A stretch of DNA of 42,320 nt from a virus: IMG/VR virus record IMGVR_UViG_3300022932_000020, positions 1 through 42,320 of that record, one strand, 5' to 3'. A program made the position numbers and the translations under genes. This document shows, one piece after another, positions 24,566 through 38,923 of the stretch. The notes beneath the pieces were generated by a model that was not told the DNA's origin, searched no databases, and saw nothing but the letters and a program-made list of their open reading frames with translations. How positions within the stretch are numbered: position 1 is the first letter of the stretch; every line of letters begins with the position of its first letter.

Positions 24566-24847
24566 ATGTTCAGATGGGTGATGATGGCAGCAGCCGGCGT
24601 GGCACTGGGGTCAGCGGCGCCGGCCGCAGACGGCACCTTCAAGACGAAGGTAAACGGCAGCACCTACCGCGTGTCTGTCAGCAACGGCTATTTCGAGGTG
24701 GCGAAGAAGTCGATCTTCGTGGTGGGATCAGTGAAGCTGCGAGACGAGATGCGCGCCGCGGTGGCCGGGGCAACCGGGTGCACCGCGCGCGACGACATGA
24801 TGGTGGGCAACATCCTACAAGGAAAACTGGAGTGCTCCGCCCAGTGA
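24566..24847 (+). CDS. secreted plus-strand protein, moron candidate
   Basis: A 93-residue protein from ATG 24566, with GGAG about 9 bases upstream. It begins with a signal peptide: MFRWVMMAAAGVALGSAAPA, likely cleaved near AxA. The mature part is a small domain (TFKTKVNGSTYRVSVSNGYF, RDEMRAAVAGATGCTARDDM, ending KLECSAQ) with two cysteines. It runs opposite to the flanking tail genes and overlaps a second plus-strand gene. Periplasmic location and a superinfection or lysogeny role are inferences; no family is recognised. Confidence 0.65.
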   Translation: MFRWVMMAAAGVALGSAAPAADGTFKTKVNGSTYRVSVSNGYFEVAKKSIFVVGSVKLRDEMRAAVAGATGCTARDDMMVGNILQGKLECSAQ

Positions 24848-25020
24848 AGCAGTGCCCCCGATGCGCAGAGCCAATCCAGGCTGAGGCTCGACGCTGCCCG
24901 CACTGCGGAAAGGTTCTACACCGCGGCCCAACACCGGCGGCAGCTGGCTGCTTAATTATCGTAGCGCTGGTCGTGGCGCTATTCTGGAGCTTAGGCAGTC
25001 CACAGCACTGGGCAGGCTAG
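24844..25020 (+). CDS. zinc-ribbon plus membrane-anchor protein, moron candidate
   Basis: A 58-residue protein from GTG 24844, overlapping the previous stop (GTGA). A double-Cys zinc ribbon, CPRCAEPIQAEARRCPHCGK, is followed by one membrane segment (AAAGCLIIVALVVALFWSLG). Zinc-ribbon/TM small proteins occur widely, with unknown or regulatory roles. The stop at 25020 overlaps the convergent tail gene end by 4 bases. Confidence 0.65.
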   Translation: MKQCPRCAEPIQAEARRCPHCGKVLHRGPTPAAAGCLIIVALVVALFWSLGSPQHWAG

Positions 25021-30545: not shown

Positions 30546-30889
30546 CAGGCGGCACGGATCGCGGTGATGTCGATCGCCGTGTTCGGCCGCTCATCCGCCG
30601 CCGGCACGATCGAGGTGATATCCCAGTCCGCTTCCAGATACCGGATGCGGTCGGTGATCGTCAGGGTGCGCGTCAGGCTATCGAGCAGCACCCGGAAGGT
30701 AGCCGGCGCCGAGCCGCTCTGCTGTGCCGCGTCGCGCCGCTCCTGCCCCGTCCCGAACGATGCACACGCCCAACGCTTGCCCAGCTCGGGCCACGTCTGC
30801 ACGTCGGCGTTCATGGCGTCCTTGGTGATCTCGGCGCGGTGAAAGGCGATGCGTCGATTGCGCGCGCCGGGGGAGGAGGAAAGCGCCAT
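30545..30889 (-). CDS. head-tail joining / head closure protein
   Basis: A 114-residue protein. GARNRRIAFHRAEITKDAMN, GKRWACASFGTGQERRDAAQ and RYLEADWDITSIVP follow the Phage_H_T_join (HK97 gp7-like/SPP1 gp16-like) plan of an antiparallel beta barrel. It seals the head after packaging and binds the tail. It is coupled on both sides. Confidence 0.82.
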   Translation of the reverse strand: MALSSSPGARNRRIAFHRAEITKDAMNADVQTWPELGKRWACASFGTGQERRDAAQQSGSAPATFRVLLDSLTRTLTITDRIRYLEADWDITSIVPAADERPNTAIDITAIRAA

Positions 30890-31425
30890 CAGCCAATCAC
30901 CGGCAGCCGGTGGCGATCGTAAATGCTGGCCAGCCGCGAAGCCTCGTCCGCGGTCGGCGCGCGGCGGTCATACTCGATGCCGATCAGCAGCAAGATCGCC
31001 GCCTTGAGCATGAACGGCACATCCGCCAGCGTCGCATAGCCCGCCGTCATGGTGATCGTGGTGGACGTGCCGGGCAGTGTGGAAGGCCGCCCGATCGCCG
31101 CCAGCCGCGCCGGCCGCACGTTCAGGTCCGCGATCCAGTCGCTCGGCGGCATGGTCTGCGGAGCATAGGCCGCGTCGAGATAATCGATCGCGTCGATGCT
31201 ATCGATTGGCCATGCGTAGAGCGCCAGCCAAGGGCCAAAGCCCTGCCGCGCCTCGGTGATCTGCCGGCGCGTCAGAATCAAGCCGGTCGCCAGCTCCACC
31301 TCCTCGCGCGCGGCGACGATCAGGTTGGCGATCAGGTCGTTCTCGGTGTCGTCGTCCACGCGCAGGTGCAGCTTGGCGTCGGCCAGGGTGACGGGTTCGT
31401 CCTCGAGACTCACAGGCTCGGCCAT
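30889..31425 (-). CDS. head-tail connector (HK97 gp6-like)
   Basis: A 178-residue protein beginning EPVSLEDEPVTLADAKLHLR then VDDDTENDLIANLIVAAREE, the standard gp6/YqbG connector opening. The C-terminus (FMLKAAILLLIGIEYDRRAP) is a helix. It forms a ring beneath the portal. It is the first gene of the connector-tail block after the acyltransferase interruption, with a GAGGAGACGAG sequence upstream. Confidence 0.85.
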   Translation of the reverse strand: MAEPVSLEDEPVTLADAKLHLRVDDDTENDLIANLIVAAREEVELATGLILTRRQITEARQGFGPWLALYAWPIDSIDAIDYLDAAYAPQTMPPSDWIADLNVRPARLAAIGRPSTLPGTSTTITMTAGYATLADVPFMLKAAILLLIGIEYDRRAPTADEASRLASIYDRHRLPVIG

Positions 31426-31655: not shown

Positions 31656-32816
31656 ATGAAGATGGTCACGGTCGCGCGCGATCTGGGTGAACACCCCGAT
31701 CAGCCAGCAGTGCGCATTCGAAGCCTAGATGGATTGCGCGGCGTCGCCGCCGTGGTCGTGGTCTTCTACCATCTGTGCTTGCTGTTCCCGCTCGGGTGGG
31801 CGGCCTACCTTAAAGAACCCAGCTCGCCACTATTCAACGTCCTGCTCCGCAGTCCCGGCAGCATCCTGACCGCCGGACGTCCTGCCGTGTACGTCTTCTT
31901 CGTGCTGAGTGGGTTCGTTCTCGCATACAGCTTCGTCGGGACTGATGGGCAGCGCTACCGGCCCTATCTCATTAAGCGGATCTGCCGGATCTGGCTTCCG
32001 TTCACAGCAGCGATCCTTGGCAGCGCCTTGCTCTACCTGCTGTTCGATGGAGGCCACGTTCCCACCGCGAGCAGCTGGTTCAACGATCTGTCCTGGAACC
32101 CACCTCTAAGCGTGAGCAAGGTCGTTGAACACCTTGCGATGACCGGCGGCGCCGAGGATCTCGACAATGTCATGTGGAGCCTCGTTCACGAGATGAGGAT
32201 CTCGATCGTGTTCCCGCTTCTCGTGGCGGCCTATCTGCGCTTTCCCAAGTTCACCATCCTGAGCGGCCTGGCACTTTCGGTTATCTGCATCGTCGCCAAG
32301 GCCCGCATCGACAGCCCTGTCGGAGACTCGATCCTGGAGACCGGCCGTTATTCCTACCTGTTCGTTCTCGGCATCGGCCTGTCTCAAGAGCGCGCCAGGA
32401 TCTCGGCAGCTGTGTCGCGGCTGCCCGCCGCTGTCGTAGCGATGGCGTGGATCGCCGTGTGCCTTCTTCTGACCAGCCGCATGATGCTTCCGAACAATGG
32501 CGGCAAGTTGCTCTGGCTGTTTGGCGAGTTCCCGGTCGGCCTCGGCGCTGCGCTCGCCGTTGCGCTGGTGCTCCGCCGCGGCGGGACCGAACGTCTGTTC
32601 GCAAATCGGATGACGCTTTGGCTCGGCGGCGTCTCGTACAGCCTATACCTGGTTCACGTGCCTATCATCCTGCTGGTCGGCAGCGTCGCCGGGGCCATCT
32701 ACCCAGCACTGGTTCCTGTCTGCTTTGCACTGGCAATCGCCGCGGCGTGGCTCTTTCACAAGCTGGTCGAGAAGAAGGCGCAGGATGTCGGTCGTAGGCT
32801 CGTCGCTCGGGCGTGA
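31656..32816 (+). CDS. acyltransferase-3 family membrane protein (O-antigen acetylase type)
   Basis: A 386-residue protein. The motif IRSLDGLRGVAAVVVVFYHL (about residues 21-40, with His39) is the N-terminal signature of the acyltransferase-3 family; the FVLSGFVLAYSF segment and about ten membrane spans follow, ending in a basic tail. Members transfer acetyl groups to surface polysaccharides; phage-encoded ones cause serotype conversion and block superinfection (established for several phages). It runs opposite to the surrounding late genes and is bounded by direct repeats, so it is a moron expressed in the lysogen (inference). Confidence 0.88.
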   Translation: MKMVTVARDLGEHPDQPAVRIRSLDGLRGVAAVVVVFYHLCLLFPLGWAAYLKEPSSPLFNVLLRSPGSILTAGRPAVYVFFVLSGFVLAYSFVGTDGQRYRPYLIKRICRIWLPFTAAILGSALLYLLFDGGHVPTASSWFNDLSWNPPLSVSKVVEHLAMTGGAEDLDNVMWSLVHEMRISIVFPLLVAAYLRFPKFTILSGLALSVICIVAKARIDSPVGDSILETGRYSYLFVLGIGLSQERARISAAVSRLPAAVVAMAWIAVCLLLTSRMMLPNNGGKLLWLFGEFPVGLGAALAVALVLRRGGTERLFANRMTLWLGGVSYSLYLVHVPIILLVGSVAGAIYPALVPVCFALAIAAAWLFHKLVEKKAQDVGRRLVARA

Positions 32817-32820
32817 TGCC

Positions 32821-32834
32821 GTCTCAGCCTACAG
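32821..32834 (+). repeat. 14-bp direct repeat, right copy (moron boundary)
   Basis: The second copy of GTCTCAGCCTACAG. It covers the stop codon of the minus-strand gene that follows (CTG TAG on that strand), so the natural end of that gene was probably the recombination point. Confidence 0.65.
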
Positions 32835-33158
32835 CTTGCGCCCTGCCAGCTTCCCGCCAATCGCAATGGACGTGGCGGACCCGACGGGCTTGATCATCGC
32901 CGGCAGCACCGCCGCCAGATCATCCGCAGCCGCGTAATAAAACTTGCCGGCCTGCTCGCCGACGAGGCGCAGTCGGGTGACCGGGCGCCCCTTGGCGTTC
33001 AGGTATCGCTTGCCGTTGAACCGGTCGCTAGTATCGGCCCGCAAGCTGGTCAGCGGCTTGTCCAGGACGATCAAAGGGATATACTCGGTTTCAGCTGTGG
33101 TGATACGCGGAAGCGTTTGGATCGCCCAAAGCCGCTGACAGGGGCCTCCGAGGTGCAT
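32829..33158 (-). CDS. hypothetical protein, possibly frameshifted at its start
   Basis: A 109-residue protein from ATG 33158. ITTAETEYIPLIVLDKPLTS and GRPVTRLRLVGEQAGKFYYA suggest a mixed alpha/beta virion or accessory protein. A second frame opens at ATG 33193, coupled to the previous stop (TGATG), and reads MADLPDTFSPV before leaving this frame by one base. A single-base change near 33159 would join the two. No family is recognised. It lies between the beta-helix gene and the connector block. Confidence 0.55.
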   Translation of the reverse strand: MHLGGPCQRLWAIQTLPRITTAETEYIPLIVLDKPLTSLRADTSDRFNGKRYLNAKGRPVTRLRLVGEQAGKFYYAAADDLAAVLPAMIKPVGSATSIAIGGKLAGRKL

Positions 33159-33192: not shown

Positions 33193-34281
33193 TCACAGCA
33201 GCACCCCGCCCGCACCAGTCGGCGGTGCGCTAGGGTAGAACGCCCGAAGCCCGCCGGTTGGCGTATAGTAACCGCCCGCAAGGCAGTTGACCGTCATGTC
33301 GCCCCACTTCCACTTGAAGCCGGTCCGGTCGCTGATCTCGTAGGGCTGGTGCAGATTGACGACCGTCGGCCCGGTTTCGGAACGGAAGATCGCCTGCCCG
33401 GTGTCGGCGCGCGTGTCGATTTCCCCTTCACCTTCGCCGATCGTCGTAAGGACAACGGCGCCCTTCGCGATGATCTTGCCGAGGTTGGAAGTCGTGACCG
33501 GCCGCGTCGGGCTGTCGCCGCCATCGTACCAGAAGTCCTGATTGGTCGGGGACTCACTGACCAGCGTCCCGCCCCTCGCCTCCGTGTCGTTGATCCAGAG
33601 GCGGAAGTTGCGGTGACTTCCCCCGGCCGTGCATACACCAAGAAAGGTCGCGCCGCTCTTGCTGTCCCATCCGGCATCGACGTTCCGCCGCGCGGTGCAG
33701 GTGTCATAAATGACTTCGTAATTGCCGCCTTCGTCGGAGAAGCCCTCGCCCTGGCCGTATGGCTTGCCGTCCGCCATAATGCCCGCGAAGTCATTCATTT
33801 CGCAGTTGCGGATCTTGATGCGATGGCATTGCCCGTCTAGCGCAATGCCCTGCCCGAATGGCTCTCCGGCCGCGCCTAGACCGCTGCCGGTCACATTCTC
33901 GATCAGGCCGTCATACACGCTCCACCATCGCGCGACCGCACGCTCGACTTGCGTGAATGTGCTGTCGCGCAAGGTCGCGCCGTAGGTTTCCTGCCCCTGC
34001 ACCGTCTCCCAGCCACGCACGATGTTATGTGCGGTGATGCCGGAAACGGTGATGTTCGACTTGTCGGGCTGATCCGACTTCTGGCGCAGGACCGTCTTGT
34101 AGTTGGTGAGCGTAAGGTTCGCGAGGACCGCGTTGTTGTCGGTCACCGTGAACGCCTGGTTGCCCGCTGGCGATGATGCGATGCCGGGGCTTCCGTTGAA
34201 CGGCCCCCGATCGCCTGTGTAGCTGTCCATGGCGGTCTGCTCCCCGTCGAGCGTGCCCTGCGTGTATTCTGGTGCGCCCAC
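33193..34281 (-). CDS. right-handed beta-helix protein (pectate-lyase-like fold)
   Basis: A 362-residue protein, GTG start at 34281, three bases after the upstream stop. It has repeated short beta turns with stacked Asn/Asp and hydrophobic residues: VLANLTLTNYKTVL, SNITVSGITAHNIV, GATLRDSTFTQVER, HRIKIRNCEMNDFA, YEVIYDTCTARRNV. This is the parallel beta-helix plan used by tailspikes and polysaccharide-degrading enzymes. The region lacks an N-terminal virion-binding domain, so it may depend on the adjacent 677-residue protein. Glycan binding or cleavage is inferred. Confidence 0.75.
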   Translation of the reverse strand: MGAPEYTQGTLDGEQTAMDSYTGDRGPFNGSPGIASSPAGNQAFTVTDNNAVLANLTLTNYKTVLRQKSDQPDKSNITVSGITAHNIVRGWETVQGQETYGATLRDSTFTQVERAVARWWSVYDGLIENVTGSGLGAAGEPFGQGIALDGQCHRIKIRNCEMNDFAGIMADGKPYGQGEGFSDEGGNYEVIYDTCTARRNVDAGWDSKSGATFLGVCTAGGSHRNFRLWINDTEARGGTLVSESPTNQDFWYDGGDSPTRPVTTSNLGKIIAKGAVVLTTIGEGEGEIDTRADTGQAIFRSETGPTVVNLHQPYEISDRTGFKWKWGDMTVNCLAGGYYTPTGGLRAFYPSAPPTGAGGVLL

Positions 34282-34283
34282 CG

Positions 34284-36317
34284 CTAAGGGAGGGTGATGC
34301 CCTGCTTGGTGGATGCGGAGGCGACCATCTGAGCTTCAAAGGCCTGCACCTCGGCCAAGGTCAGCGCGGTCCCCGACTTGACGAAGGCGTTCGCCACGTC
34401 GCCGTTGAAGAAGTCGATATTGCCCGACGTATTGCGCGAGCCGATGCGCACGTCCGCCGTCGTGACAGGGGAAACGCCGTTCGGCAGCGCGCCGCACGCG
34501 ATCGGCGTGGCCACTTCGACACCGTTGAGGCGAAGGTGGACGTTGGTGCCGTCGTGCCATGCCACAGCGCGGTTCCACGAGCCTGCCGCGACCGTCGCGG
34601 TGGACGCGATCGTAGCTGCCGGCGTGCCGCTGGTCAGGCTGGTGTAGAAGTAGGCGACCAGATTGCCCGTCGAATTGAGCATGAGACGCCAGAACCAGAC
34701 CTTGGTGGCGTTGCCCTTCATGCGCGAGACGAGAGTGGCTTCGCCGCTTGACGGCAGCGCAGTCGCACGGAAGCTGACGCCTGCTGCAATGCTCGGCCCG
34801 TCGAGACGGCGGCTGTCGCGGATCGTCAGCCACTGATCTGTGCCGTTGAACCGGATGAAGTTGGACGCGCCGGACGCCACCCGCGTAGGATCGTTGTCGG
34901 TGTTGCCCAGCGAACTGCCGAGGATCGCCAGGAAGCCTGCGTAGTTCGGATCGCGGAACAGTCCGCCGGTCGTTTCGGCAAGCTCGATGAAGCCACCACG
35001 GAAGTCAGCCGGGAGCGGCTTCGTAATGTCCGCGAGTGCCGCATCCAGAAGGTTCTGGTAGGCGGTGTTACCTGCCGTCCGGGTCAGCAACTCGTCCTTG
35101 CCACTGGCGTTTGCCGCGAAAGTCGAAACCCCGGTTGTCGGATCGATCGTTACGTCACCAAGGGCGCTTGATGTGTTCGCAGCCTTCGCACCGGGATAGC
35201 GGGAGATATAGCCCGACGACGGATCGTAAGCGGCGCGTCGATCATCGGTAAGCACGTTCTCGATGCCATAGACCTCATAAGCCTTGGCCACCGGATCGAT
35301 AAGCGGGTTGGTAAAGCGCGGCGGCATGATCTGAATCGGATTGGCGAACTCGTAGCCCTGCCAAATGCGACGCCACGGCTGTTGCTTGAGAGCGATCATG
35401 GCGGGTTTGCTGATCGCGACGTTAAACTCCTGAACGGCCGCGTCGAAGCGCCCGCCCATCTGATACCAATCCTTGATCTTGGCGTCGGATAGCTGCTGCC
35501 CGGTAAGCGGAGAGATGCCGTCTGCAGGCGACGCCAGAAACTCGAACCAGTCGACCGGACTGCCGACGCAATCGATCGATACTGATGCGTCCGGCGCGGC
35601 AGCGAGTAGCGTCCGCCAGCCGATCGAAGTGCCCGGATAGTTGGTGCGACTTTTTGCTTTTACGGCTGTGCTGCCAAACTGATCGCGCAACGCAAGAGAG
35701 TAGCCGCTCGCTGAGCCGCTTTCGACCGTGCCAATATCTGTGGAAAGGCCGCCCTCCGCAGGTGTCTTGTAGGTGTAAACTGGCACCCCGGTAACGCCGT
35801 AGGTCGCAAGCATAGCCTCGACGCCGGGAGCGCCGTAGGTTGATCGGGAGGACACCATCACGCCGATTAGGTTGATGTTTCCGGCGAGGTGCTGCGCGAT
35901 CTGGAAAGCAAGTGCGGGCACGTCGTCAACGTCGAACGCCCAGTCGGTCGAGTGGATGACGCGCTGGGCCGTCGAGACAGCAGCCCCCACCGTCCCGAGC
36001 GCGCCGCTCTTGGGCGAACCCGTCGCCCCCGCCAGCGTCTCGGTCACGGTGATCGACCCCGCCGTGGTGGGGGTGCCGTTGATGGTGCGCGTGGTGCCGC
36101 TGCCGGAGACGGTCAGGCCCGCTGCACCAGCGCCGCTCAGCGCAACCGTGCTGCCGGCAGCGGTGCCCACGATGATGACGCCCGATGCGGCAGTGCCGAC
36201 GGTCAGGGTGCCGGATAGGGCGAGGGTGGCGAGGATGGGGGTGGAACCACCGCCGCCGAGGCCAACGACCACCGCCACAGTCCGATTGAGCCGGGTCCGG
36301 AGAGCGGATCGCGCCAT
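34284..36317 (-). CDS. nucleoside-hydrolase-like plus LamG fusion in the head module
   Basis: A 677-residue protein from ATG 36317, with GAGG 5 bases upstream. Residues about 28-105 are Gly/Thr/Ser-rich, Ig-like beta (TLALSGTLTVGTAASG). About 117-430 resemble inosine-uridine nucleoside hydrolases: RVIHSTDWAFDVDDVPALAF carries the DxxxDxDD calcium-site-like cluster, then NINLIGVMVSSRSTYGAPGV. About 480-650 look like a LamG/concanavalin-like domain (FNGTDQWLTI, GSWNRAVAWHDGTNVHLRLN). It lies between capsid and connector genes, beside a beta-helix gene. A surface decoration or receptor role is likely; enzyme activity is unproven. Confidence 0.72.
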   Translation of the reverse strand: MARSALRTRLNRTVAVVVGLGGGGSTPILATLALSGTLTVGTAASGVIIVGTAAGSTVALSGAGAAGLTVSGSGTTRTINGTPTTAGSITVTETLAGATGSPKSGALGTVGAAVSTAQRVIHSTDWAFDVDDVPALAFQIAQHLAGNINLIGVMVSSRSTYGAPGVEAMLATYGVTGVPVYTYKTPAEGGLSTDIGTVESGSASGYSLALRDQFGSTAVKAKSRTNYPGTSIGWRTLLAAAPDASVSIDCVGSPVDWFEFLASPADGISPLTGQQLSDAKIKDWYQMGGRFDAAVQEFNVAISKPAMIALKQQPWRRIWQGYEFANPIQIMPPRFTNPLIDPVAKAYEVYGIENVLTDDRRAAYDPSSGYISRYPGAKAANTSSALGDVTIDPTTGVSTFAANASGKDELLTRTAGNTAYQNLLDAALADITKPLPADFRGGFIELAETTGGLFRDPNYAGFLAILGSSLGNTDNDPTRVASGASNFIRFNGTDQWLTIRDSRRLDGPSIAAGVSFRATALPSSGEATLVSRMKGNATKVWFWRLMLNSTGNLVAYFYTSLTSGTPAATIASTATVAAGSWNRAVAWHDGTNVHLRLNGVEVATPIACGALPNGVSPVTTADVRIGSRNTSGNIDFFNGDVANAFVKSGTALTLAEVQAFEAQMVASASTKQGITLP

Positions 36318-36386
36318 GGTCACCTCACGTCTGAAATAGAGAGGGCCGCCCCATCAGGAGCGGCCCAGGTGCTCGAGAGAGCGGGA

Positions 36387-36725
36387 TCAGCCCTTGAGGT
36401 TGGCCTCGACGGCTTCCTGCATGGTCTGGTGCGGATCGTTGAAGTCGATCCGGTTGGCGATCTTCGGCTGACCCTTGCGCGGCTCGTTATCCACCGCCGG
36501 GTGCGACGTATCGATGCGCTCCACGATGGTCGGCTCGATCATGGCGCCGGATGCCGCGACTTCCGTCGCAGGCGTCAGCGTATCGACCTCCAGCAGGGTC
36601 GTGTCGGCAACGCCGGGCGTATCGGACAGCTTCACGTCGCTGGTGCCGACGGACGTGCCGGGCTGATCAAGAGGCGCATCGGCGGAATTGGCGGCGACGG
36701 TCGCCGTGGTCTTCTTGGCAGTCAT
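36387..36725 (-). CDS. small protein after major capsid, unknown
   Basis: A 112-residue acidic, probably disordered protein rich in Thr, Ala, Asp and Val (DVKLSDTPGVADTTLLEVDT), with a more ordered end (IANRIDFNDPHQTMQEAVEA). Position directly downstream of the capsid gene is where head decoration or head-tail accessory proteins often lie. No family is recognised. Confidence 0.6.
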   Translation of the reverse strand: MTAKKTTATVAANSADAPLDQPGTSVGTSDVKLSDTPGVADTTLLEVDTLTPATEVAASGAMIEPTIVERIDTSHPAVDNEPRKGQPKIANRIDFNDPHQTMQEAVEANLKG

Positions 36726-36777: not shown

Positions 36778-38043
36778 TCAGGCCGCGACCTTCAGGGCGC
36801 GCATGGGCTCCGGGTTCTTCACGCCACCGCCGGTCCGCTTCGTGGTATAAAAGTGGACGAACGGCTTGTTGGTGAAGGGATCGCGCAGCACGCGGATGCC
36901 GATGCGATCGACGATCTGGTACGTGGCATCCATGTCGCCATAGAGGGCCGCGACGTTACCTGCCGCGACCACCGGCATGCCGGGCATGTCCGCGATCGGC
37001 ACGCCAGCAATGGTGGAGGGCTGGCCAGCTTCGAACGAAGGCTGCCAGATGTAGTTGTTGCCCGCATCCTTCAGCTTCCGGAGCGCGCCGACGCTGCTGC
37101 GGTTGATGAACAGCCGCGCGTTCGCCTCGAACTCGGCGGGGAGATCGTAGACGAGGCTCAGGATGCCATCGGCTGTCAGCGCCGTGGCCGCCCCCGAGTT
37201 GACCACCGGGATTGCGCCCCAGGGGTGCTTGGCAGCGTTCGCCGCACCGGTGACATAGGTCAGCACGCCGAACGGCTTGTTGACGCCATCGCCAGAGAGG
37301 TGGGCGATGCCCTCTTGCTTGGCGAACTCGGTATTCACCTCGTCCGCAAGCCATGCCTCGATGTCCACCTCGGCGTCGTCGATCAGACCCTGCGATGCCG
37401 CCGGGTTCGCGTAGAGCTCACCCAGGCCGAAATCGAGGACAGTCAGGCCGGGCGTGGTGGTCGCCGGGCGAGCGGCGGTCTCACCGACCCAGCCGGAGCC
37501 GACGACACGATCGGAGAACACCTTCTTGAAGCCAGCGCCGCTGATCGAGATCACCGACGCATAGTTGCGCATCATCGACACCTGCTTGAGGCGCTTCGTG
37601 ATGGTGCGATCCCATTCGACCGGGGCGAGATAGCCGCCTTCGCCGTCCGTCTTCGTGGCGGCCGCGCGGATCTCTTCCAGCTTGGCGCTGATGTCGCCGC
37701 GCTTGAAGTAGGCCTTGAACTGCCCCGAATACTCCGGGTCGCGCGGCTGATCGCCGCCGCCACCATTGAGCTTGTAGGCGGCGATCTGGACCGCCTGTTC
37801 GTCGATCGATGCCTGCAACGCGGTGATCGCGTCGTTCATGCGGTCCGTCTTCTCGGCCGTCACCACATCCGTCTTGCCGGCCTTGATGTCGGCGAGCTCC
37901 TGGTTGTGGTGTGCCTTGAAGCCTTCCCAGGCAGTGGCGAGTGCTTCGATGGTCGGCGGGGACTTAGGCTGGGCTTCGGCGCGCACGGCGATGAGGCCCC
38001 GACCCGGCGCGGCGATGCCGCGCAGGTTGGTCAACATGGTCAT
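36778..38043 (-). CDS. major capsid protein (HK97 fold)
   Basis: A 421-residue protein from ATG 38043, AAGGAA upstream. An N-terminal helical delta-domain-like region (about residues 25-95, PPTIEALATAWEGFKAHHNQ) is followed by the HK97-fold core: GYLAPVEWDRTITKRLKQVS, GSGWVGETAARPATTTP, INRSSVGALRKLKDAGNNYI, and RVLRDPFTNKPFVHFYTTKR at the end. The N-terminal part is probably removed by the adjacent protease during maturation (known in HK97). Confidence 0.95.
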   Translation of the reverse strand: MTMLTNLRGIAAPGRGLIAVRAEAQPKSPPTIEALATAWEGFKAHHNQELADIKAGKTDVVTAEKTDRMNDAITALQASIDEQAVQIAAYKLNGGGGDQPRDPEYSGQFKAYFKRGDISAKLEEIRAAATKTDGEGGYLAPVEWDRTITKRLKQVSMMRNYASVISISGAGFKKVFSDRVVGSGWVGETAARPATTTPGLTVLDFGLGELYANPAASQGLIDDAEVDIEAWLADEVNTEFAKQEGIAHLSGDGVNKPFGVLTYVTGAANAAKHPWGAIPVVNSGAATALTADGILSLVYDLPAEFEANARLFINRSSVGALRKLKDAGNNYIWQPSFEAGQPSTIAGVPIADMPGMPVVAAGNVAALYGDMDATYQIVDRIGIRVLRDPFTNKPFVHFYTTKRTGGGVKNPEPMRALKVAA

Positions 38044-38053
38044 GTCTGTTCCT

Positions 38054-38923
38054 TCAGACGGTGAGGGCAAGCAGGGCGCGGCTCATTGCCGCGTCCGGTT
38101 CATCGCCAGCGCGAAGCGTGGCAGGGTCGGCAGCGTTATGCGTGCCGGGGTTCATCGCTCGGAACAGGTCACGGCGCTCGGATCGCGACATGCCGTTCTT
38201 GGCGAGAAATTGATCGAGCGAAGCCTTGTCGCTCGGGTGATCGGGTGCTTCCGCATAGACCGGCATCTGGGCTTCACGGTCGAGCAGCAGGTCGGCCAGG
38301 CCGGCGTCGATCGCCTGCTGGCCGCGGAAATAGACATCCTTGCCGGCGATCATCGCTTCGAACTCGTCGATCGGACGGCCGGAGCGCGCGGCGTAGGTCT
38401 CGCACATGCCGGCATCGATATGCTCAAGCGTCTGGTAGGCTTCCTTCATCTCCGACTTGGTGCCGAAGAACAGGCCGCGGGCTTCGTGGATCATGATCTC
38501 GGCGTTCGTCGCAACCGCAATCGTGTCACCGGCCATCGCAATCACCGAAGCGGCGGAAGCAGCGATGCCCAGCACCTGGACCTCAACGTCGGCATCGTGC
38601 CGGCGAAGCAGATTGTACATCGCGACGCCGTCAAAGACGTTTCCGCCGGGCGAGTTGATCTCGACGATGATCGGCTTGCCGGCGACGGAGCGCAACGCGC
38701 CCGCAATCTTCGGCACGGTCACACCGCCGCCCATGCCATCGTCGCCGATATAGTCGAAGATCGAGATGGTCGGGCGCGCACTGGCAAGCGCGGTTACGTC
38801 GAAGTGTTTGAACTCGGGCGACAGCGCACGCGCCTCGAACTTCCAGTCTGCACCGGAGCCAGCATTGCCGATCTCCGGCGGTCGCTGGCTTGCGTAGACG
38901 CTAAGCAGGTTGCGGTGGCGCAT
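38054..38923 (-). CDS. ClpP-like head maturation protease
   Basis: A 289-residue protein from ATG 38923, overlapping the portal gene end by 23 bases. VEINSPGGNVFDGVAMYNLL (SPGG 91-94), GIAASAASVIAMAG (Ser123 the likely nucleophile) and AEIMIHEARG (His146) are ClpP-type serine-protease motifs. The distal RPIDEFEAMIAGKDVYFRGQ, then AIDAGLAD, completes the family pattern. It cleaves scaffold or delta domains of the capsid before packaging. Confidence 0.92.
   Translation of the reverse strand: MRHRNLLSVYASQRPPEIGNAGSGADWKFEARALSPEFKHFDVTALASARPTISIFDYIGDDGMGGGVTVPKIAGALRSVAGKPIIVEINSPGGNVFDGVAMYNLLRRHDADVEVQVLGIAASAASVIAMAGDTIAVATNAEIMIHEARGLFFGTKSEMKEAYQTLEHIDAGMCETYAARSGRPIDEFEAMIAGKDVYFRGQQAIDAGLADLLLDREAQMPVYAEAPDHPSDKASLDQFLAKNGMSRSERRDLFRAMNPGTHNAADPATLRAGDEPDAAMSRALLALTV

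Follow-up and report, generated by a model that had tools for sequence, protein, structure and literature searches.

What does a domain built like an enzyme of nucleoside metabolism do in a protein that is encoded among the head genes of a phage? The question is raised by a gene at positions 34284-36317 of the IMG/VR virus record IMGVR_UViG_3300022932_000020, of which positions 1 to 42,320 were analysed (a stretch of 42,320 nucleotides, referred to here as the window). Between the major capsid and head-tail connector genes, the window encodes a 677-residue protein in which a nucleoside hydrolase (NH)-fold domain is followed by a LamG domain; the NH module recurs in other phages, and in the nearest phage found the central domain is exchanged for another one. 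Phage fibres set which bacteria are infected, and the folds by which they read or cut sugars are mostly beta-helices, jelly-rolls and propellers. The analyses presented below point to a virion surface protein as the probable identity of this gene product, that is, a head or neck fibre or decoration composed of an N-terminal attachment segment, an NH-fold domain and a LamG-like lectin domain.

The NH-fold domain and its predicted pocket

The plus strand of 34284-36317 is riddled with stops and the minus strand is open; its frame spans 679 codons if read from the GTG at 36323, and 677 if the start is the ATG at 36317. Because GAGGTG sits just 5' of this ATG and the start of the homologous gene in L151, the nearest phage, aligns there, 677 residues is taken as the correct length. 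An earlier note on this DNA had given the same length and coordinates and no strand, and these hold for a minus-strand open reading frame (ORF) running 36317..34284. The probability of an open frame this long arising by chance is about 2e-8 at local composition, and the GC content by codon position (0.59/0.56/0.78) is coding-like. Residue numbers count from GTG 36323, and subtracting 2 gives the ATG numbering. The features of the protein are the following:

34284..36317, minus strand: NH-LamG fibre-like protein, 677 residues, coordinates with the stop codon (minus-strand ORF with a start homologous in L151)
36219..36317, minus strand: N-terminal anchor-like segment, beginning MARSALRTRLNRTVAVVVGLGGGG (resembles the N-terminus of the exchanged L151 protein; putative anchor role)
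35988..36218, minus strand: possible Ig-like module, residues ~36-112 (low-confidence strands in the model; match in L001)
35010..35975, minus strand: NH-fold domain, residues 117-438 (homology, structure model, fold search and alignment)
35922..35951, minus strand: metal/ribose motif S125-T-D127-W-A-F-D131-V-D133-D134, family consensus DTDxxxDxDD (alignment)
35421..35429, minus strand: E299-F-N301, aligned with the conserved E-F-N of RihC, which makes ribose contacts (alignment)
35223..35225, minus strand: D367, aligned with the distal Ca2+ Asp of nucleoside hydrolases (alignment)
34344..34847, minus strand: LamG/ConA-like jelly-roll, residues 493-660 (Pfam PF13385, E 2.1e-10, and fold search)

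The AlphaFold (AF2) model of the protein, built with 32 sequences, showed a pLDDT mostly about 90 over the NH region (117-438). In a Foldseek search against the PDB, this region matched 39 chains at E<=0.001, exclusively nucleoside hydrolases and the NH-fold protein XopQ, with E values of the significant matches from 1.5e-11 to 9.5e-6 and a TM score by target of up to 0.76, while the viral-protein structure library returned giant-virus nucleoside hydrolases alone. The earlier note had proposed an NH-type domain that a fold search placing residues 117-430 in another family would overturn; run on these residues, the search returned only NH folds, and the assignment stands together with tblastn matches to a Rhizobium homologue (E 7e-25) and to a cellular nucleoside hydrolase of Parabacteroides (E 4e-8). 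The Pfam scan gave no match in the middle of the window protein, the PF01156 profile included; the curated cut-off of that profile (34.2 bits) was reached by homologue P0002 (71 bits) and by L092, one of the other phage modules.

At the other end of the protein, PF13385 (LamG) scored 41.4 bits against a cut-off of 27.6. The C-terminal part, folded on its own with five sequences (pTM 0.70, mean pLDDT 63), gave a ConA-like jelly-roll with generic sugar-binding lectin matches, including sialidase lectin domains, CBM40 and a cyanophage tailspike. The LamG-like C-terminus that had been proposed is thus supported by both profile and fold. The same cannot be said of the proposed Ig-like N-terminus, where the pLDDT was ~40-53, the Pfam scan gave no match, and similarity was found over a short stretch (42% identity over 58 residues) to a module in another phage, L001.

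The aspartate cluster HSTDWAFDVDDVPAL, from which the NH-type assignment had started, was located at residues 124-138. Alignment of the window protein with E. coli RihC, 22 cellular relatives and the other phage modules revealed that D127, D133, D134, E299, N301 and D367 are retained, where D127 is the second Asp of the motif, D133/D134 are the DD pair, and D367, ~230 residues downstream, corresponds to the HD Asp of RihC. Compared with the DxDxxxDD fingerprint, the window sequence STDWAFDVDD has lost the first Asp and carries two inserted residues, with D127, D133 and D134 in alignment; the resulting loop spacing, TDxxxDxDD with two extra residues, is the same in the window protein and in XopQ. 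Among the phage modules, E299 is kept in 9/9, N301 in 8/9 and D367 in 8/9, positions that lie outside the pattern used to search for these modules, and the other phage modules are 21-33% identical to the window NH module. In the DUF2793-NH tail protein of G008 (L149; L160:6802-9510, minus strand), the distal Ca2+ Asp is replaced by Gly and the ribose-contact Asn by Asp; lacking the equivalents of N301 and D367, this module may have decayed or may serve for binding only.

Recurrence of the NH module in phage structural regions

The Rhizobium rhizoryzae homologue (WP_165137779.1, annotated as 'nucleoside hydrolase'; NZ_CP049252.1) matched residues 116-644 of the window protein at 29% identity, and itself scores against PF01156 (1.5e-19) and LamG (5e-13). 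As in the window protein, NH is followed by LamG and the gene is located within a virion fibre region; unlike the window protein, it has the full DTD motif, is without the long N-terminus, and lies at the tail-tip end, after J-like central fibre and tail-protein-like genes and directly before the endolysin. The element carrying it (L003, 'plasmid unnamed5') is a 41-kb plasmid with ParAB, integrase, repressor-like, endolysin and tail-fibre genes; IMG/VR, too, has it among its viral contigs, and it looks like a phage-plasmid. It carries the closest relative of the window protein and might serve as laboratory material.

A degenerate DNA pattern for DTDxxxDxDDxxA, run over 2.9 million viral contigs, hit 101 contigs, mostly by chance, from which a hidden Markov model of the NH region retained nine strong ones: the Rhizobium contig and eight further IMG/VR contigs. 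At least seven of these eight modules sit in large multidomain proteins near capsid, adaptor, sheath or tail-tip genes. Their architectures are NH+LamG (L109), Ig-like/LamG+NH in a protein of 1439 residues (L123), LamG+NH (L092), DUF2793+NH (L149), long fibres with a terminal NH (L120 and L050), a 674-residue protein (L144) and a shorter one (L059). The NH gene lies between capsid (phrog_283) and head-tail adaptor (phrog_637) genes in G007, between capsid (phrog_1328) and head structural (phrog_2941) genes in G004, and between neck/head genes and the tail sheath in G003; it is 3' of the capsid gene in L050, near the terminase in G005, after a gene transfer agent-like tail-tip protein, and fused to DUF2793, in G008, and adjoining a BppU_N protein in G006. 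In this last phage, an integrase-like gene (phrog_1; L158, 6158-7153, minus strand) was also observed among the structural genes, immediately upstream of those for the BppU_N and NH fibres.

Maximum-likelihood analysis placed eight of the nine phage modules in one clade (95/87), separate from the 22 cellular relatives, with five LamG-linked modules as a subclade (94/82). The cellular relatives are almost all stand-alone proteins of ~320-380 residues from Planctomycetota, Verrucomicrobiota, Bacteroidota and others. L149 falls outside the phage clade on a long branch, so the module may have entered phages once or twice. Peptide-pattern searches recovered almost nothing in viral contigs, nor in genomes from a single sequence, and a terminase profile applied to the relatives' contigs gave no match, being of the wrong family and uninformative. 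In addition, tblastn of 50,697 phage genomes with the window protein, the Rhizobium homologue and three other phage NH modules as queries gave no match, and thus no cultured relative is present in that collection.

Domain exchange and gene neighbourhood at the locus

The capsid of L151 is 76% identical to that of the window, and after its homologue of the 112-residue ORF that follows the window capsid gene, L151 encodes a 947-residue counterpart of the NH-LamG protein (L151:10689-13529, plus strand). The N-termini of the two proteins (MAISRLRARLNRTVAVVIGGG vs MARSALRTRLNRTVAVVVGLGG) are 40% identical over 83 residues, whereas the body of the L151 counterpart contains BNR (sialidase-type) repeats (PF15892, 7e-4, under the curated cut-off) and matched neither NH nor LamG in the Pfam scan. 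A pattern search with the N-terminal anchor recovered the L151 contig alone, and a shared N-terminus with a different distal domain was seen in L151 only. In the more distant Burkholderia phage Bcep176 and L152, the capsid gene is followed almost directly by the connector gene, without an insert. Because L151 swaps NH for a BNR/sialidase-like body and Bcep176 and L152 have no insert, the arrangement is what one would see for a putative receptor-facing gene that is optional and whose sugar-acting domains can be exchanged.

The location between capsid and connector genes, also part of the earlier claim, is borne out by strong profile matches on both sides of the interval:

36778..38070, minus strand: major capsid protein (PF05065, 3e-69; phrog_10)
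36387..36725, minus strand: 112-residue protein directly 3' of the capsid gene (75% identical to its L151 counterpart)
33193..34230, minus strand: beta-helix-like protein of 345 residues from ATG, with GGGGAG upstream, a possible partner (Pfam Beta_helix only 0.19)
32829..33158, minus strand: 109-residue protein of unassigned role, in the same interval
30889..31425, minus strand: head-tail connector (PF05135, 9.2e-10; phrog_442)

The interval thus houses, besides the NH-LamG gene, the small ORF, the beta-helix-like ORF, the 109-residue ORF and a plus-strand acyltransferase, and the remaining block contains portal-region, protease, tail terminator, major tail, tape-measure and tail-tip genes in the order usual for a long-tailed phage. 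A search for phage relatives of the beta-helix-like neighbour found none, its nearest matches being unannotated stretches on Microvirga and Persicobacter plasmids. The acyltransferase is an O-acetyltransferase (31656-32816, plus strand; PF01757, 4e-35; phrog_3333) lying on the opposite strand within the head-to-connector interval, and is likely a lysogenic-conversion gene that would alter the host surface polysaccharide. Together with the beta-helix-like ORF, it would fit the picture of an exchangeable cassette. Elsewhere in the window, a small ORF (24574-25020, plus strand) with a zinc-ribbon-like sequence, CPRCAEPIQAEARRCPHCGK, separates the tail-tip fibre gene from the tail gene upstream of it and runs against the direction of the block.

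Possible functions of the protein

As a virion surface protein, the gene product would be fixed to the particle by its N-terminus; D127, D134 and D367 of the NH domain would hold Ca2+, the NH pocket would grip a furanose (ribose-like) residue of the host surface polysaccharide by its hydroxyls, and the LamG domain would help in sugar binding, the particle thereby being held at the cell surface ahead of tail attachment. In relatives with the complete DTD motif, the NH domain may also hydrolyse a glycosidic bond, while in the window copy binding seems somewhat more likely than catalysis because of the Ser at the first motif Asp. The earlier note had offered both a repurposed fold for head fibre or decoration and an active ribohydrolase carried on the virion. 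Use of the module in a fibre or decoration gains from its return in multidomain proteins of the structural regions of other phages and from the domain swap in L151. Between a repurposed binding fold and an active enzyme the evidence is divided, with the distal Ca2+ Asp and the ribose-contact Glu and Asn kept and S125 and S305 changed.

Several observations weigh against the surface-protein reading as set out here. The first motif Asp is replaced by Ser (S125) only in the window copy among the aligned modules, and the Asp of the 'DP' position is also Ser (S305), at a site altered in three other phage modules too. The conservation of DTDxxxDxDD in the other viral modules is partly circular and does not count as independent evidence, because the scan pattern had selected for the motif. 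At the N-terminus, the Ig-like domain was not confirmed, and the anchor match to L151 is short, with an E value of 1e-5 as a single comparison. Three relatives carry the gene at the tail tip rather than the head, and 'head fibre' is accordingly less certain than 'virion fibre'. Finally, it is gene context that places the protein in the virion.

Among the other explanations, a virion-borne furanosidase or depolymerase, in which an active NH domain would cut capsule or O-antigen at a ribofuranosyl (or similar) linkage in the manner of a tailspike, is conceivable though doubtful. The retained Ca2+ Asp residues (D127, D134 and D367) plus E299 and N301 speak for it, as do the BNR/sialidase-like domain at the same locus in the sister phage L151 and the beta-helix-like protein next door, which has the fold style of many depolymerases. 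It is weakened by S125 and S305 in place of conserved Asp, by the inactivity on nucleosides of XopQ and Sde_0182, NH-fold proteins with fused domains (PMC8910321), and by the fact that NH enzymes cleave N-ribosides, an O-glycosidic activity of the NH fold being undocumented in the open-access literature searched. A wider version is put forward tentatively, in which the phage NH clade would comprise Ca2+-dependent furanosidase fibre modules acting on ribofuranose-type residues of surface polysaccharides and swapped with sialidase-like cassettes on a common capsid-side anchor; they would make up a class of depolymerase whose catalytic fold has not been described in phage virions. Pure structural repurposing, with the NH domain as a ligand-free scaffold or spacer, is unlikely: two motif Asp are lost in the window copy and the G008 (L149) module has neither the N168 nor the D242 equivalent, as such a role would allow, but the distal Asp, the Glu and the Asn persist in 8-9 of 9 phage modules despite their low identity to that of the window.

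An intracellular metabolic gene (moron), namely a nucleoside hydrolase recycling host nucleosides during infection or lysogeny, is very improbable. Free-standing NH genes are listed among the nucleotide-metabolism genes of phages Seuss (PMC4591317) and TCUP2199 (PMC9228384), and a moron-like acyltransferase is near on the other strand; yet in the window protein the NH domain is joined to a lectin-like domain and to an N-terminus that a different virion-region protein (L151) shares, the relatives of the module occur in fibre-like proteins by structural genes, and the gene lines up with those of the head. A plain metabolic gene was rejected on this domain fusion and gene context. Hardly credible at all is a XopQ-like effector that would be injected and target cytoplasmic NAD+/ADP-ribose, for instance to counter an NAD-based defence: the TDxxxDxDD spacing equals that of XopQ, which binds ADP-ribose (PMC8910321), but the lectin-like C-terminus and the fibre-like architecture of the relatives are unsuited to injection, and PADLOC gave no match. 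An anti-phage defence role was also rejected on the PADLOC result.

Among known systems, inosine-uridine nucleoside hydrolases (PF01156; Crithidia IU-NH 1mas/2mas, E. coli RihC) share with the window protein the fold, the distal Ca2+ Asp and the E-F-N motif; it differs from them by two extra fingerprint-loop residues, Ser for the first Asp, fused domains and the lack of a profile match. According to a review of N-ribohydrolases, NH-fold proteins fused to other domains are inactive on nucleosides, and XopQ retains the Ca2+ site (PMC8910321); for this reason the window protein is provisionally filed as an NH-fold domain in a fibre-like protein and not as a nucleoside hydrolase enzyme. The type III effectors XopQ/HopQ1 share the NH fold and the TDxxxDxDD spacing and set a precedent for non-nucleosidase use, although they are secreted bacterial effectors without a lectin domain. 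In Saccharophagus Sde_0182, as described in PMC8910321 (citing Hehemann 2011), carbohydrate-binding domains accompany an NH-like domain that still holds Ca2+, does not act on nucleosides and has been proposed as a furanose-interacting module; in contrast to the window protein, Sde_0182 is cellular, has no phage context, and was absent from the sequence matches obtained here. Capsid decoration proteins and head fibres bind carbohydrates, and T4 Hoc, T5 pb10 and phi29 gp8.5 are comparable to the putative fibre as capsid-surface, carbohydrate-binding proteins that aid host attachment; no NH-type enzyme-fold domain is described for them (PMC7602432). In the collections and open-access literature searched, no phage fibre with an NH fold was described, phage nucleoside hydrolases appearing only as nucleotide-metabolism genes.

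Because the NH domain recurs in fibre-like proteins of unrelated phages, the module is probably a previously undescribed unit with which phages grip or cut bacterial surface sugars. If this is true, a nucleoside-salvage enzyme fold in head or tail fibre-like proteins would add a furanose-specific tool of recognition or cutting, and 'nucleoside hydrolase' annotations in virion genes would be explained. It also makes testable whether NH-fold modules act on furanose glycans, which is proposed yet unproven for the cellular Sde_0182.
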